Positions 11,751-30,360 of a DNA stretch of 64,000 bases are shown here, piece by piece. The position numbers were made by a program, and so were the translations under genes. Each line of letters starts with the position of its first letter. Positions within the stretch are counted from its first letter, which is position 1. The notes beneath the pieces were generated by a model. It saw nothing but the letters and a program-made list of their open reading frames with translations, searched no databases and was not told the origin of the DNA. The stretch is taken from assembly GCF_035975855.1 (NCBI RefSeq), contig NZ_CP109055.1:6138001-6202000 (forward strand), written 5' to 3'. This stretch comes from Streptomyces sp. NBC_01304 (GTDB lineage Bacteria > Actinomycetota > Actinomycetes > Streptomycetales > Streptomycetaceae).

Positions 11751-11812
11751 ATACCCCCTGGGGGCATGCTAGCTTCCCGTCTCGTTCATCCAGCTATACC
11801 CCATAGGGGTAT
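11751..11812. promoter_or_regulatory. Two CsoR-like operators between DoxX and MFS genes
   Basis: ATACCCCCTGGGGGCAT (11751-11767) and ATACCCCATAGGGGTAT (11796-11812) are 17-bp palindromes of the ATACCCC-NNN-GGGGTAT type, 45 bp apart start to start. They match the pattern bound by CsoR/CstR-family repressors and closely resemble sites at the copper locus of this window. No CsoR gene is present here, so the regulator acts from elsewhere. Confidence 0.65.
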
Positions 11813-11846
11813 ATGGCTGAGTCGAGAGGGAAAGGTCGGGGTGGAA

Positions 11847-13277
11847 ATGCCAACCACAAACCCGCGTCGCTGGTGGGCACTGCTCGTGCTCGCCGCCGCG
11901 CAGTTCATGGTGATCATGGATACGAGCATCATCGGAGTGGCCCTGCCGAAGATGCGCGAGGATCTGGGCTTCTCGCAGGGCGAGTTGCAGTGGGTGTTCA
12001 ACGCGTACGTCATCGCGTTCGGCGGGCTGTTGCTGCTCGGTGGGCGACTGTCCGATCTGCTCGGCGCGCGACGGGTGTTCAGCGCCGGGTGGGTCGTCCT
12101 GATCGGGGGGTCTGTTGTTGCGGCCGCCGCGCAGACCGCCTGGGTCGAGGTCGTCGGGCGGGCCGTGCAGGGCGTGGGCGGTGCGCTGATCGCGCCCGCT
12201 GCGATGACCCTGCTGATGATGCTCTTCGCGCACGACCCGAAGGAGCTCGGCAAGGCGATGGCGCTGTACGGTGCCGCGGCGCCGGCCGGCGGTACGGCGG
12301 GCGTGTTCCTCGGGGGCGTCTTCACCGAGTGGCTGAGCTGGCCGTGGATCTTCATCATCTACGTACCGATCGGCGTCGCCACGCTGGCGGCCGTGAAGCT
12401 GCTGCCCGAGGTGGGCCGGCGGGGCGGTTCCGTGGACGTGCTCGGGGCTGCGGCGGTCACGGCGGGGCTCGCGCTCGCTGTGTTCGCGGTGGTGCGGGCG
12501 CCGGAGGTCGGCTGGGGATCGGCGGGTACGGTCCTCCAACTTGTGGGCGCTGCTGGGCTGTTGGGGCTCTTCTTCGTCCTTCAGCGGAGTGTGCGGGAGC
12601 CGTTGATGCCGCTCGGGATCTGGCGGGTGCCGCGGCTCGGGTCGTCGAACCTGGCGATGGCGCTCCTTGGCGCGGCCTGGATTCCGATGTGGTACTTCCT
12701 CAACCTCTACCTGCAGCAGGTGCTGGGATACGGCGCGTTCGCGTCGGGGGCGGCCCTGCTCCCGACGACCGTACTGCTGATGATCTTCATGACCGCCATC
12801 ACGGCCAGGCTGCTGGCCCGCTTCGGCGCCAAGTCGCTGATCGGGGCGGGGTTGTTGGTCCTGGCGCTGGGGTTGGTGTGGCTGTCCGCCGTGGAGCCCA
12901 CCGGGTCGTTCGTGGTGGACGTGCTGCCGGCGTCGCTGGTGGCCGCGCTCGGGATGTCGCTGGCCTACATCCCGGCGATGATGGCCGCGCTTTCAGGGGC
13001 TCCGCAGGAGCAGGCGGGGTTGGCGTCCGGGATCGTGAACACGACCTATCAGGTGGGGTCGGCGTTGGGGCTGGCGGCTTTGACCGCTCTTGCCACCTCG
13101 CGAGGTGCCGGTCAGCTGGGGGACTTGGGCGCGCTGACGGATGGGTTCCGGGCCGCGTTCGTCGGGGCGGCGGGCGTCGCGGCGCTGGGCGGGGTTGTCA
13201 CGTTGCTGGTGATGCGCGGTTCGGGCTCGGGCTCGGGCCGTTCTGCACAGGCTGTGGACGAGGGGGTCCATGTGTAG
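11847..13277 (+). CDS. MFS transporter, DHA2 (EmrB/QacA) drug-efflux family
   Basis: This 476-aa protein has about 14 TM segments and DHA2 marks: MVIMDTSIIGVALPKM in helix 1, GRLSDLLGARR in the loop after helix 2 and motif C-like GGTAGVFLGGVFTEWLSW. Substrate unknown. ATG 11847 is chosen; a GTG two codons upstream is an alternative. Two CsoR-like palindromes lie just upstream, so expression may follow a metal or persulfide signal rather than a drug. A palindrome-rich region without recognisable genes follows. Confidence 0.9.
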   Translation: MPTTNPRRWWALLVLAAAQFMVIMDTSIIGVALPKMREDLGFSQGELQWVFNAYVIAFGGLLLLGGRLSDLLGARRVFSAGWVVLIGGSVVAAAAQTAWVEVVGRAVQGVGGALIAPAAMTLLMMLFAHDPKELGKAMALYGAAAPAGGTAGVFLGGVFTEWLSWPWIFIIYVPIGVATLAAVKLLPEVGRRGGSVDVLGAAAVTAGLALAVFAVVRAPEVGWGSAGTVLQLVGAAGLLGLFFVLQRSVREPLMPLGIWRVPRLGSSNLAMALLGAAWIPMWYFLNLYLQQVLGYGAFASGAALLPTTVLLMIFMTAITARLLARFGAKSLIGAGLLVLALGLVWLSAVEPTGSFVVDVLPASLVAALGMSLAYIPAMMAALSGAPQEQAGLASGIVNTTYQVGSALGLAALTALATSRGAGQLGDLGALTDGFRAAFVGAAGVAALGGVVTLLVMRGSGSGSGRSAQAVDEGVHV

Positions 13278-13446: not shown

Positions 13447-13584
13447 GGTTCTCGGCTGTTGCTCGTGTCCGCCCTCGCGGGGAGGTGGGGGTGGGGTGGG
13501 GAGCGGGATTCCGGCTAGGTCGTGTGGTGTGAGCTTGGGGCGGGGGCGCGGCGGAGGGGTGGGCGATCGGGGTGGGGGTAGGGG

Positions 13585-15022
13585 CAACTGCTCAACTGCT
13601 CAACTGCCTGATTGCGTGGCTGGTGGGGGTGGGTGGTTGCGCGGACCTCCGTCTGTTTCGTTGCTGGCTGCGGGCGCTCGGTGGCTGGCTTTCCCCAATT
13701 GCTGTCAGTACGGGGCCCGGGGAGGTGGCTGCCGGTGATGGAAGAGGCGGGGGCAGGGCAAAGACAAAGACCGCAGCGAGAGAAAGGGGATGGAGGGGAA
13801 GTGCAGGCCCGGCGGGGGGAGGTGCGGGCTCGGGACGGGGAGTGCGAGCTCAGGAGGGGGAGACGCGAGCCGGTGGGGGGAGGTGCGGGCTCGGGACGGG
13901 GAGGTGCGGGTTCGGTGGGGGAAGCGCTGGCCCGGCGGGGAAGGAAGTGCGGGCTCGGGAGGGGGGACGCGGGCTCGGGACGGGGAAGTGCGGGTCCGAC
14001 GGGGGGAGATGCGGGCCCCGGGACGGAGAAGTGCGGGCCCGGCGGGGGGAAGTGCTGGCTCGGGGCTGGGAGTGCGGGCTCGGGAGGGGGAGACGCGGGC
14101 CCGGGACGGGGAAGTGCGGGTCCGGTGGGGGGAGACGCGGGCTCGGGGCGGGGAAGTGCGGGTCCGGTGGGGGGAGATGCGGGCTCGGGGCGGGGAAGTG
14201 CAGGCCCGGCGGGGGAAGCGCTGGCCCGGGACAGGGGGTGTGAGCTCGGGAGGGGGAGACGTGAGCCCGGGACCGGGAGGCTGGGGCTGGCCGGGCGGAA
14301 GGTGGCGTCGGGGTGCCCGGTTTGCCCGTTAGGTGAGCCCCTTTCCTGCCGCGAGGCGGCGGAGGGCGGGGTCTGGAGGCTTAGTGGGGGGAATGGGGCG
14401 CGAGAGCGTCCCTTTTGTGGTGGTTCTGTTGCCCGTTTTCCCCCACTAGGCCCCCAGCCTGCCCTCCGAGCCCCCAGCCGCCCCCAAGTCCTCGCCCGTC
14501 CCCTTTCCTCGCCCGCCCTTCGGGCCCTCGCCCGCCCTCCGAGCCCCCGCCCACCCCCACCGGACCCGCACTTCCCCGTCCCGAGCCCGTATCTCCCCGT
14601 CCCGGGCCAGCGCCTCCCCCACCAGGCCCGCACTATCCCGTCCCGAGCCCGCATCCCCCCACCGGGCTCGCGTCTCCCCCCTCCCGGGCTCGCACTCCCA
14701 GCCCCGGGCCAGCACTTCCCCCACCGGGCCCGCACTTCCCCGTCCCAAGCCCGCACCTCCCCCCGCCGGGCCCGCACTTCCCCTCCAGCCCCCTCCCCCT
14801 CCCCCCTCCATCCCCTTCTCTCGCTGCGGTCTTTTGTCTTTTGTCTTTGCTCTTCCCCCACCTCTTCCATCACCGGCAACTTTCCTCCTGGGCCCCGTAC
14901 TGACATCAGTTGGGGAAAGCCAGCCACCGAACACCCGCAGCCGACAACGAAACAGACGGAGGTCCGCGCAACCACCCACCCACCCCAGCCACGCAATCAG
15001 GCAGTTGAGCAGTTGAGCAGTT
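13585..15022. repeat. Giant imperfect inverted repeat (about 1.44 kb), no recognisable gene
   Basis: The left arm begins with CAACTGCT-CAACTGCT-CAACTGCC (13585) and the right arm ends with its complement (to 15022). Over about 215 bp at each outer end the arms pair closely: for example GCGCGGACCTCCGTCTGTTT at left matches the complement near 14955 at right, as does CAGTACGGGGCCC. Further in, each arm holds a G-rich (left) or C-rich (right) tandem array of units of about 21 nt, with about 23 units at left and about 11 at right. The central 250 bp is non-repetitive. Long open frames exist in several phases only because the unit length is near 21 nt. Confidence 0.85.
13801..14285 (+). repeat. 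Tandem array of about 23 G-rich units of about 21 nt
   Basis: The unit consensus is GTGCGGGCYCGGGACGGGGAA, slightly more than 20 nt, with lengths of 19-23 nt. Units alternate between GTGCGGG and CGCGGG starts, suggesting growth by duplication of pairs. Every unit has three or four G-runs, so G-quadruplexes are possible on the plus strand. The complementary array of the right arm runs from about 14555 to 14790. Confidence 0.8.
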
Positions 15023-15112
15023 ACCTCAGGCCTCAGGCCTCAGGCCTCAAGGCGCGGCTTCGCCAGGGGCCTCGGACGAGAGCGCCTCGGACGAAAACGC
15101 CGCAGACGAAAA

Positions 15113-15147
15113 CGCTGGACGGGCTGACCAAGTCAGCCCGTCCAGCG
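15113..15147 (-). terminator. Rho-independent-like terminator of copA
   Basis: A perfect 16-bp stem (15113-15128 with 15132-15147) has a 3-nt loop. On the minus strand it is followed by GTTTTCGTC. It lies 31 bp after the stop of the copper ATPase gene. The stem core, GGACGGGCTGA, is related to the centre of the family P palindromes. Confidence 0.7.
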
Positions 15148-15178: not shown

Positions 15179-17455
15179 CTACGCCGCCTTGAACCCCCGC
15201 AGCCGCAGCGAGTTCGCCACCACGAAGACCGACGAGAACGCCATCGCCGCCCCCGCGATCATCGGGTTCAACAGCCCCGCCGCCGCCAGCGGAATCGCCG
15301 CCACGTTGTAGGCGAAGGCCCAGAACAGGTTCGACTTGATCGTGCCCAGCGTCTTCCGCGAGAGCCGGATCGCGTCCGCGGCGGACCTCAAGTCACCGCG
15401 TACGAGCGTCAGATCGCCCGCCTCGATCGCCGCATCCGTACCCGTACCCATGGCCAACCCCAGGTCAGCCTGTGCCAGCGCCGCCGCGTCGTTGACGCCG
15501 TCGCCGACCATCGCGACCGACTTGCCCTCCGACTGGAGCCGCTTGACCACGTCGACCTTGTCCTCGGGCATGACCTCCGCGATCACGTGCTCCGGGGCGA
15601 TCCCCACCTCCGCGGCGACCGACTCGGCAACCGCCTGGTTGTCGCCGGTGAGGAGGATCGGGGTCAGGCCCAGCGCGCGCAGGCGCCGGATGGCCTCCGG
15701 GCTCGTCTCCTTCACCGCGTCCGCGACCTCGAGGACCGCGCGGGCCTCGCCGTCCCAGGCCACCGCGATGGCCGTACGGCCGGCGGCTTCGGCGGAGGCC
15801 TTGGCGCGCTCCAGCTCCACGGGGAGCGTGATCGCCCACTCGGCGAGCAGCTTCTCGCGGCCGACCAGGACCGCGTGGCCCTCGACGACGCCCTGGACGC
15901 CGAGGCCGGCGACGTTGGTGAAGTCCTCCGGGGTGGGCAGCGCACCGATCTGCTGAACAGCGCCCGCGGCGACCGCCTGGGCGATGGGGTGCTCCGAGGC
16001 GTGCTCCAACGCGCCTGCCAGGCGCAGGACTTCGGACTCCGGAACACCCTCAGCGGTGTGCGTGGCGAGCAGAGCCATGCGGCCCGTCGTCACCGTGCCG
16101 GTCTTGTCGAGGACGATCGTGTCGACCTTGCGGGTCGTCTCCAGGACCTCCGGGCCCTTGATCAGGATGCCGAGTTGGGCGCCGCGCCCGGTGCCGACCA
16201 TGAGCGCGGTCGGAGTGGCGAGGCCCAGGGCGCAGGGGCAGGCGATGATCAGGACGGCGACCGCGGCGGTGAAGGCGGCGGTCAGTCCGGAGCCGTTGCC
16301 GAGCCAGAAGCCGAGGGTGGCGAGGGCGAGGCCGATCACGACCGGGACGAAGACGCCGGAGATCTTGTCGGCGAGCCGCTGGGCCGCCGCCTTGCCGTTC
16401 TGCGCGTCCTCAACGAGCTTGGCCATCCTGGCCAGTTGGGTGTCGGCACCGACCCGGGTGGCCTCGACGACCAGGCGGCCGCCCGCGTTCAGGGTCGCGC
16501 CGGTCACCGCGTCGCCGACCGCGACCTCCACCGGTACCGACTCCCCGGTCAGCATCGACGCGTCCACGGCCGAGGAGCCCTCGACCACCAGGCCGTCCGT
16601 GGCGATCTTCTCGCCGGGCCGGACCAGGAAGCGGTCGCCGACCTTCAACTCGGCGGTGGGGATGGTCTCTTCGCCGCCGTCCGCGCGGATGACCGTGACG
16701 TCCTTCGCGCCGAGCTGCAGCAGCGCCTTGAGCGCCGCGCCCGCCTTCCGCTTCGAGCGGGCCTCGAAGTAGCGGCCCGCCAGGATGAAGGCCGTCACAC
16801 CGGCTGCCGCTTCGAGGTAGATGTTCCCCGCGCCGTCCGTGCGGGCGATGGTCAGCTCGAAGGGGTGTGTCATGCCGGGCGTGCCCGCCGTGCCGAAGAA
16901 CAGCGCCCACAGCGACCAGAGGAAGGCCGCCGACGTACCGACCGAGATCAGTGTGTCCATCGTCGCCGCGCCGTGCTTGGCGTTCGTCCAGGCGGCCCGG
17001 TGGAAGGGCCAGGCGGCGTACGTCACCACGGGCGCGGCGAGGGTCAGTGACAGCCACTGCCAGTACTCGAACTGCAGCGCCGGGATCATCGCCATGGCGA
17101 TCACCGGGACGGCGAGCGCGACGGCCGCGGTCAGGCGCTGGCGCAGGGGGCGCAGTTCGTCCGCGGCCGCCTGCTCCTCCTGTTCCGCCGTCGGTACGTC
17201 GCCGGGGCCGGCCGCTGTTCTCGGCGGTTCCGGCTCCTTCGCCGTGTAGCCGGTCGCCTCGACCGTGGCGATCAGGTCCTGGACCGCGATGTCCTCACGG
17301 AAGCTGACCTTCGCCTTCTCGGTGGCGTAGTTGACGGTCGCCTCGACGCCCTCCATGCGGTTGAGCTTCTTCTCGATGCGGGCGGCGCAGGAGGCGCAGG
17401 TCATGCCGCCGATGGCGAGCTCGACGCTGGCCGCTTCCCGGGTCGGGGTGGACAT
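15179..17455 (-). CDS. copA: Copper-exporting P1B-type ATPase CopA
   Basis: This 758-aa enzyme uses ATP to export Cu(I). An N-terminal heavy-metal domain carries GMTCASC (Cys20, Cys23). About eight TM segments follow, with the ion-binding CPC in [16 protein letters not shown] near residue 408, phosphorylation motif DKTGT near 449 and hinge GDGVND near 652. TGES of the actuator domain is also present. ATG 17455 has GAGGAG 7 nt upstream, so I reject the longer open frame. The divergent promoter region has CsoR-type operators, consistent with copper induction. Confidence 0.95.
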
Positions 17456-17515
17456 GTTCTGCTCCTCGGTCGTGGTGAGTCTTTGCTTTGGCCGGTCTTG
17501 GTGACACTGCTCCGA

Positions 17516-17617
17516 GTACCCCCTGGGGGTATCTCTCGTGCTGGATTCATGTATACCCCCCCACCCCATTCGATGCAAGGGGCTCCCACCGCTTGACTTC
17601 ATACCCCTAGGGGGTAT
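17516..17617. promoter_or_regulatory. CsoR-type operators between copA and the His-rich secreted protein
   Basis: GTACCCCCTGGGGGTAT (17516-17532) lies upstream of copA and ATACCCCTAGGGGGTAT (17601-17617) lies upstream of the rightward gene. A half-site, GTATACCCCCCCACCCC, is at 17551-17567. These match the known CsoR operator form, a G-rich palindrome ending in GTAT. Copper-responsive control of both divergent genes is inference from this match. Confidence 0.75.
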
Positions 17618-17630
17618 CTTCATGTGCATC

Positions 17631-17686
17631 GTCAGGCATTGCACGTCAGGCATTGCACGTCAGGCATCGCACATCAGGCATCGCAT
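17631..17686 (+). repeat. Four tandem 14-nt repeats in a 5' leader
   Basis: GTCAGGCATTGCAC occurs at 17631-17644 and 17645-17658, with variants at 17659-17672 and 17673-17686. The array lies between the CsoR-type operator and the Shine-Dalgarno of the secreted His-rich protein, so it is probably transcribed. Confidence 0.8.
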
Positions 17687-30075: not shown

Positions 30076-30151
30076 CCCCTCCCCGCCCCTTCCCGTAAGG
30101 CTGCGCCGCCTTCCGCCCTGCGGGCGGTGTCCTCAAACGCCGGACGGGCTG
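30076..30151. repeat. Family P half-element (copy D)
   Basis: It runs from CCCCTCCCCGCCCCTTCCCG to CAAACGCCGGACGGGCTG and closely matches copy C (same GCGCCGCCTTCCGCCCTGCG segment). It lies in the 440-bp divergent gap between the helicase-associated gene and the next rightward gene. Confidence 0.85.
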
Positions 30152-30360
30152 AAGAGACGGCGGGCGGGCCGCAGAGATATGGGGACGGGTTGAAGGGGTG
30201 GGGGCGGGTTGAGGAGATGGCGGGACGGGTTGAAGGGATGGCGGGCGGGCTGCAGGGATAGGGGGACGGGCTGCAGGGATGCCGGACGGGCTGGACGGCA
30301 TGACGGCATGACGGCATGACGGCATGTCGGACGTGCCGGATGGCATGCCGGGCGTGCCGG
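30152..30360. repeat. Degenerate GC-rich tandem expansion
   Basis: About 200 bp of imperfect units of about 20-25 nt carrying GGACGGGYTG and GGGATGGCGGG follows copy D directly. It ends in a GACGGCAT octamer run near 30296-30327 and GCCGGACGTGCC-like units. It appears to have grown from the end of copy D. I see no gene in it. Confidence 0.7.

Follow-up and report, generated by a model that had tools for sequence, protein, structure and literature searches.

How does a palindrome of this size come to lie between two genes of Streptomyces sp. NBC_01304, and what keeps it there? So long a palindrome would normally be expected to prove unstable in a bacterium, and the first-pass annotation of the window (the whole 64,000-nucleotide stretch of DNA analysed here) read the repeat as a single-locus structure that arose by inverted duplication and whose survival suggested selection, gene conversion between its arms or a recent origin. 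Our analysis replaces this reading. The repeat, designated c7, belongs to a family of lineage-private, foldback-like palindromes with about 19 dispersed copies, which lie at gene 3' ends and are enriched at modules of developmental regulators.

The window copy and its relatives in the genome

Copy c7 lies between convergent genes for an MFS transporter and a copper-type P-ATPase. Its parts and neighbours are as follows (window positions).

11766..13277, + strand: MFS transporter gene, pointing at the element
13577..15025: whole element, copy c7 of 19; edges set by eye, termini common to other copies
13577..13609, + strand: B-side terminus, GGTAGGGGC plus AACTGCTC units; the GGTAGGRGC end found in 14/15 paired copies
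13610..13788, + strand: left (B-side) conserved arm, 179 nt, with GATTGCGTGGCTGG at its start
13795..14279, + strand: tandem array, unit 21 nt, about 23 units (TRF)
about 14280..14456, - strand: non-repeated centre, with the core common to the 11 young pairs
about 14377-14453: stem-loop of the centre
14457..14556, - strand: 19-nt array adjoining the centre, 5.4 units (TRF)
14560..14783, - strand: 21-nt array, 10.9 units (TRF)
14812..14998, - strand: right (A-side) conserved arm, 187 nt, including a 7-nt insert
14999..15025, - strand: A-side terminus, GGTAACTGCTC plus AACTG units
15179..17653, - strand: heavy-metal (copper-type) P-ATPase gene, pointing at the element

The inverted repeat is real, with outer arms (13583-13768 and 14840-15025) of 186 nt that are 90% complementary without gaps. 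The array sizes of the first-pass annotation, about 23 units against about 11, agree with TRF, which finds 20.9 units of 21 nt at 13795-14230 and 2.7 at 14224-14279 on the left versus 10.9 on the right, in addition to the 19-nt array on that side, and the unequal 21-nt arrays bear out the claim that the inner parts expanded separately in the two arms. No gene was called between the arms, again as annotated. The very long hairpin that had been envisaged is also predicted, the single strand folding into one structure of -1230 kcal/mol, a value given with no shuffle control because the length exceeds 1000 nt. A 356-nt array-free piece with the old copy o2 has a fold z-score of -22, with 0 of 100 shuffles folding as well. 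No Rfam family is matched at the gathering threshold anywhere in the window. Short tandem repeats lie right outside the right end of c7 at 15024-15115 (CCTCAGG, 3.7 units; the 15-nt GCCTCGGACGAAAAC, 3.1 units), and similar TTGAGG/CCTCAAGG repeats are found outside copies c8 and c9. Further tandem arrays in the window occur at 30142-30293 (41 nt, 3.7 units) and 425-502 (28 nt, 2.8 units).

With the outer arm as a DNA query, at least 13 places were found in the genome (13 candidates scored), and a search with a core pattern gave 23 places, comprising 11 head-to-head pairs and one single arm. A profile built from 26 arms, with which 150 of the 9387 first-look candidates were scored, raised the number of arms to 34 or more: 15 head-to-head pairs, and 4 singles whose partner arms may be too worn for detection. 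All of them are on the 10.66-Mb contig, where they span 3.77-8.08 Mb. Since the c7-type arm is thus present at no fewer than 32 places besides c7, the likeness of the c7 arms by chance is excluded. An assembly artefact is very unlikely, as the 19 copies, all on one contig, have differing flanks and array lengths. The statement that no Streptomyces counterpart has been described agrees with our own search of the open-access literature, where none was found.

The copies fall into two age classes. The 23 young arms are on average 88% identical, and the 11 young pairs span 0.5-1.5 kb; the four older pairs are about 75% identical to the young ones. A young copy typically consists of a terminus, a conserved arm of about 180 nt, array A (units of 17-19 nt), an asymmetric centre with a stem-loop, array B (units of 21 nt), the second arm and its terminus; c7 is unlike this type in having 21-nt units on both sides. 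The core of the centre occurs only in the 11 young pairs, seven in one orientation and four, including c7 (minus strand), in the other. The number of array B units ranges among the young copies from 0 in c10, which has no arrays at all, to about 31 in c5 and c6. Arrays are also absent from the old pairs o2, o3 and o7, which measure 320-400 nt, and the shortest paired copy has 321 nt between its outer arm ends. The old copy o1 carries a 20-nt array of 25 units with a consensus unlike that of the young arrays, although young copies can still be aligned weakly (67-78%) to some stretches of its GC-rich interior. Together with the eleven young pairs it makes up twelve pairs of at least 0.5 kb (up to 1.5 kb) in one chromosome. 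We infer that the family began as the short palindrome and acquired its arrays afterwards, probably on more than one occasion. No pair among the 15 encloses a gene according to the home-made gene caller, and coding arms are not supported, because the 7-nt insert, carried by 9 of the 11 A-side arms including that of c7, and other arm indels would shift any frame.

Within a young copy the two arms have a mean identity of 85.2%, compared with 88.3% when the left arm of one copy is set against the right arm of another; of 10000 permutations that paired arms at random, 9996 gave an identity no lower than the observed one. On this test we reject gene conversion between the arms of a copy. Old pairs show identities of 0.79-0.90 within copies and a mean of 0.82 between copies. 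As arms within a copy are no more alike than arms of different copies, neither conversion nor selection for exact pairing is visible. The young arms are of two types, with identities of 90.1% for A-A, 89.9% for B-B and 86.3% for A-B comparisons, so the two sides diverged ahead of the burst of young copies. Inverted duplication therefore did not take place at the c7 locus, although the ancestor may have arisen in this way. Nor does the survival of c7 call for special selection at its locus, given that it belongs to a multi-copy repeat. The variable arm sites form mosaics across copies, which suggests exchange between copies.

Insertion sites and termini

At all 19 copies a gene points at the element, according to our home-made gene caller. 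In 14 of them the edge is no more than 40 bp from a stop codon; the number falls to 13 without c6, where the call, of 93 aa, is weak and has no Pfam match. Eight copies lie between convergent gene calls, some of them weak. A stable hairpin just 3' of stop codons, as found at these 14 copies, is a feature expected of intrinsic or bidirectional terminators.

The neighbouring genes are far from random. A DUF397 (BldB-type) gene is present within 2 kb of 11 of the 19 copies, or 9 of 17 if o6 and o7, first found by searching beside DUF397 genes, are excluded; 20000 random placements gave 0.27 on average and never more than 4. The DUF397 set consisted of 32 positions on the contig, left from 39 matches after removal of six fragments and of one match on another contig. 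At nine copies a gene of the AbaA-type ATPase or DUF397 kind lies no more than 40 bp away, and at eight the nearest DUF397 gene is over 10 kb distant. Pfam searches with representative proteins identified DUF397, HTH_31/DUF5753 and HATPase_c_2, with two of the five ATPases just below the cut-off. These neighbours are the bldB/whiJ/abaA modules, which PMC10294661 associates with Streptomyces development, and PMC8269248 reports bidirectional transcript ends at 10 of 24 XRE-DUF397 pairs in S. clavuligerus. Among DUF397 loci of this genome without a young copy, a strong hairpin 3' of the gene was found at 5 of 22, with a mean best score of 8.0 versus 6.0 for random pieces, in a set that includes two loci with old copies (L276 and L284). 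With strong hairpins at so few loci, terminators are at best doubtful as insertion targets. The location of the copies suggests that the element either prefers such module sites as targets or is best tolerated there, and that it now serves as a terminator.

GGTAGGRGC is found at one or both ends of 14 of the 15 paired copies, and GGTCACTGCTC or a close variant, as read by eye, at one end of 10. With the element edges placed by hand, no target-site duplication was detectable in any of the 15 paired copies; the longest word common to the left and right flanks of a copy averaged 5.0, compared with 5.14 for mismatched flanks. The outer ends are ragged, with about 80-100 bp past the common edge being common to c3, c4 and c7. 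Flanks are unlike between most copies, those of c1, c4 and c9 matching through paralogous modules. A search for an autonomous copy with the terminal 23-mer, allowing up to 3 mismatches, led to 16 places, all in young copies, and the pairs found with the profile (150 of 9387 candidates scored) have no gene called between their arms, a search that a highly diverged autonomous copy could escape. Single-strand transposases of the IS200/IS605-RAYT type, which recognise hairpins, insert without target duplication.

Comparison with 14 relatives at each of two loci, menG-mqnC and metG-aspS, revealed no clean empty site, the regions being rearranged. The distance from menG to the next conserved gene is at most about 310 bp in 8 of the relatives, while the aligned blocks are 599 bp apart in one and 1.5-7.9 kb apart in five. 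The extra segment at menG-mqnC (4.9 kb, L056:2934-7851), which lies between menG and the gene next to mqnC, contains an entire whiJ/bldB/abaA module along with copy c1, and since both are extra relative to 8 of the 14 relatives, they may have arrived there together.

Distribution in other genomes

Each genus search covered 392 genomes, including the present one, drawn from a larger group. No close copy was found in the 391 others, among which fragmented assemblies may hide copies. A search with a 20-mer gave one match with 2 mismatches in each of 19 other genomes, compared with 11 for the reversed-pattern control; the profile with stricter filters gave weak matches in seven, and the outer arm as a query against 60 relatives gave three weak, short matches in three of them. 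One genome (G229) has two profile matches near contig starts, with E values of 1.7e-6 and 2.3e-5. The second (L344:1-392) is a distantly related palindrome of another species; its 138-nt arms are 91% complementary, and it starts at base one of the contig. The position of both matches looks as if the assembly had broken at such repeats. An origin in plasmids, phages or viruses was rejected, as blastn with its low-complexity filter on found no match in plasmids and phages, and the exact core 20-mer is absent from the viral_contigs and genome_contigs collections, from which this genome's own or near records were possibly left out.

The gene order MFS-CopA with the same facing was found in other species at 4 of 80 loci fetched, and the three that were examined have no giant repeat, their inverted repeats having arms of at most 33 nt. 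We also rejected the possibility that such palindromes are a general feature of whiJ/bldB/abaA modules: at 29 ATPase-module loci from 29 other genomes, with flanks of about 1.5 kb, no inverted repeat scored above 105 bits (34-nt arms), compared with 216-445 bits for the 11 young pairs.

A shorter palindromic repeat, GCGCAGTTCCCCGCGCCCC, is widespread in the genus. It occurs in 66 of 121 Streptomyces genomes, with 51 copies here and up to 748 exact copies elsewhere, while the reversed pattern gave 0 matches; no description or name was found for it in the open-access literature. It resembles the family in its high copy number, in forming inverted intergenic pairs at several loci (for example L225:2884-2993 and L140:7194-7419), and in a 23-nt stretch of similarity between its consensus and the young arm; the alignment score was equalled in 4 of 2000 shuffles of the arm and in 1 of 2000 shuffles of the repeat. 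It differs in being much shorter. An nhmmer profile of GCGCAGTTCCCCGCGCCCC had no match in the elements, and the old-arm consensus had no significant match to it (the score was reached by 147 and 197 of 2000 shuffles), which leaves the kinship unproven. The similarity is suggestive of homology at most, and the giant palindromes may have developed from repeats of the GCGCAGTTCCCCGCGCCCC kind.

Origin of the family and comparison with known systems

These observations lead us to favour, on balance and with some reserve, a lineage-private, non-autonomous family of hairpin palindromes mobilised in trans, with a REP-like mode of spread, a foldback-like anatomy and a probable role as bidirectional terminators at gene ends. 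The old form would have been a palindrome of about 320-400 nt, with two arms of about 110-180 nt around a central stem-loop and with unlike termini, approximately GGTCACTGCTC on one side and GGTAGGRGC on the other. It would most likely have spread in single-stranded form, its hairpin being recognised by a trans-acting enzyme whose gene lies elsewhere, a mode that has been proposed for REP. Insertion would have been without target duplication and with a preference for gene 3' ends, chiefly those of whiJ/bldB/abaA modules. During a recent burst, slippage or unequal exchange may have built up arrays of 17-21-nt units within the arms and turned the palindromes into foldback-like giants. Once in place, the hairpin probably terminates transcription from both sides.

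A rather unlikely alternative is that the elements have no mobility of their own and were copied through duplication of whiJ/bldB/abaA modules, ectopic recombination and gene conversion between copies. The DUF397 genes within 2 kb of 11 of the 19 copies would fit this explanation, as would the homologous modules (71-79%) upstream of c1, c4 and c9, the mosaic shuffling of arm variants among copies, and the extra segment at c1 that unites module and element. However, eight of the 19 copies are more than 10 kb from any DUF397 gene, and the XRE and ATPase proteins at c2, c5, c8 and c10 have non-self matches of only 31-51% identity, compared with 88% for the young arms, a divergence too great for recombination between the modules. 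We consider it still less probable that these are MITEs of the usual sort, derived by deletion from a DDE transposon and mobilised by its transposase with duplication of the target. Terminal inverted repeats, the lack of coding capacity and dispersal in both orientations all agree with a MITE, but the own flanks of a copy share no more than mismatched flanks do (5.0 versus 5.14), the ends are ragged, and 0 of 15 pairs have a gene between the arms.

The least credible of the explanations, in our judgement a very improbable one, is a giant RNA or DNA structure maintained by the host and selected for exact self-pairing, such as a regulatory RNA or a chromosome-organising site. The extreme predicted stability of the hairpin and the confinement of the arms (at least 34) to 3.77-8.08 Mb of the 10.66-Mb contig would be expected from such a structure. 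Against it, pairing within a young copy is no better than pairing between copies, old pairs have identities of 0.79-0.90 within compared with a mean of 0.82 between, and close copies are absent from the 391 other genus genomes. Returning to the trans-mobilised hairpin family, we also entertain a more specific version of it, which is doubtful: a bacterial foldback element, mobilised as a hairpin and duplication-free, that homes to the bidirectional terminators at the 3' ends of BldB/WhiJ/AbaA modules, has arrays that are still growing, and may reset the expression of these switches. If true, it would be a bacterial foldback element in a lineage that evidently tolerates palindromes of about 1 kb. 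With array length varying among the twelve pairs of 0.5-1.5 kb, growth and decay can be measured in them, and the strong association with bldB/whiJ/abaA modules opens a concrete way to ask whether 3' ends in a large family of developmental regulators are shaped by repeats.

In anatomy the family comes closest to foldback-like elements such as FB and Galileo of Drosophila. FB is a foldback element whose long inverted arms can carry tandem arrays. The likeness includes long inverted arms with arrays of variable length around a short centre, the predominance of copies without a transposase, and ectopic exchange between copies. Galileo, according to PMC4168063, has target duplications of 7-8 bp and an identifiable P-superfamily transposase, whereas neither was found here, and the host is a bacterium. 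As we found neither a target duplication nor a transposase-bearing relative, we do not class the family as a foldback element. With MITEs, in the usual sense of the term, it shares non-coding, dispersed copies with inverted repeats at the ends; it differs in having no target duplication, in its ragged and unlike ends, and in reaching 1.5 kb with arrays. REP and BIME palindromes, built from units of about 20-40 nt, are associated with RAYT, a Y1 transposase. Like them, the members of the family are non-coding, dispersed extragenic palindromes that lie at gene 3' ends and have no target duplication, but at about 320-1500 nt they are about ten-fold or more longer, and the larger ones carry arrays.
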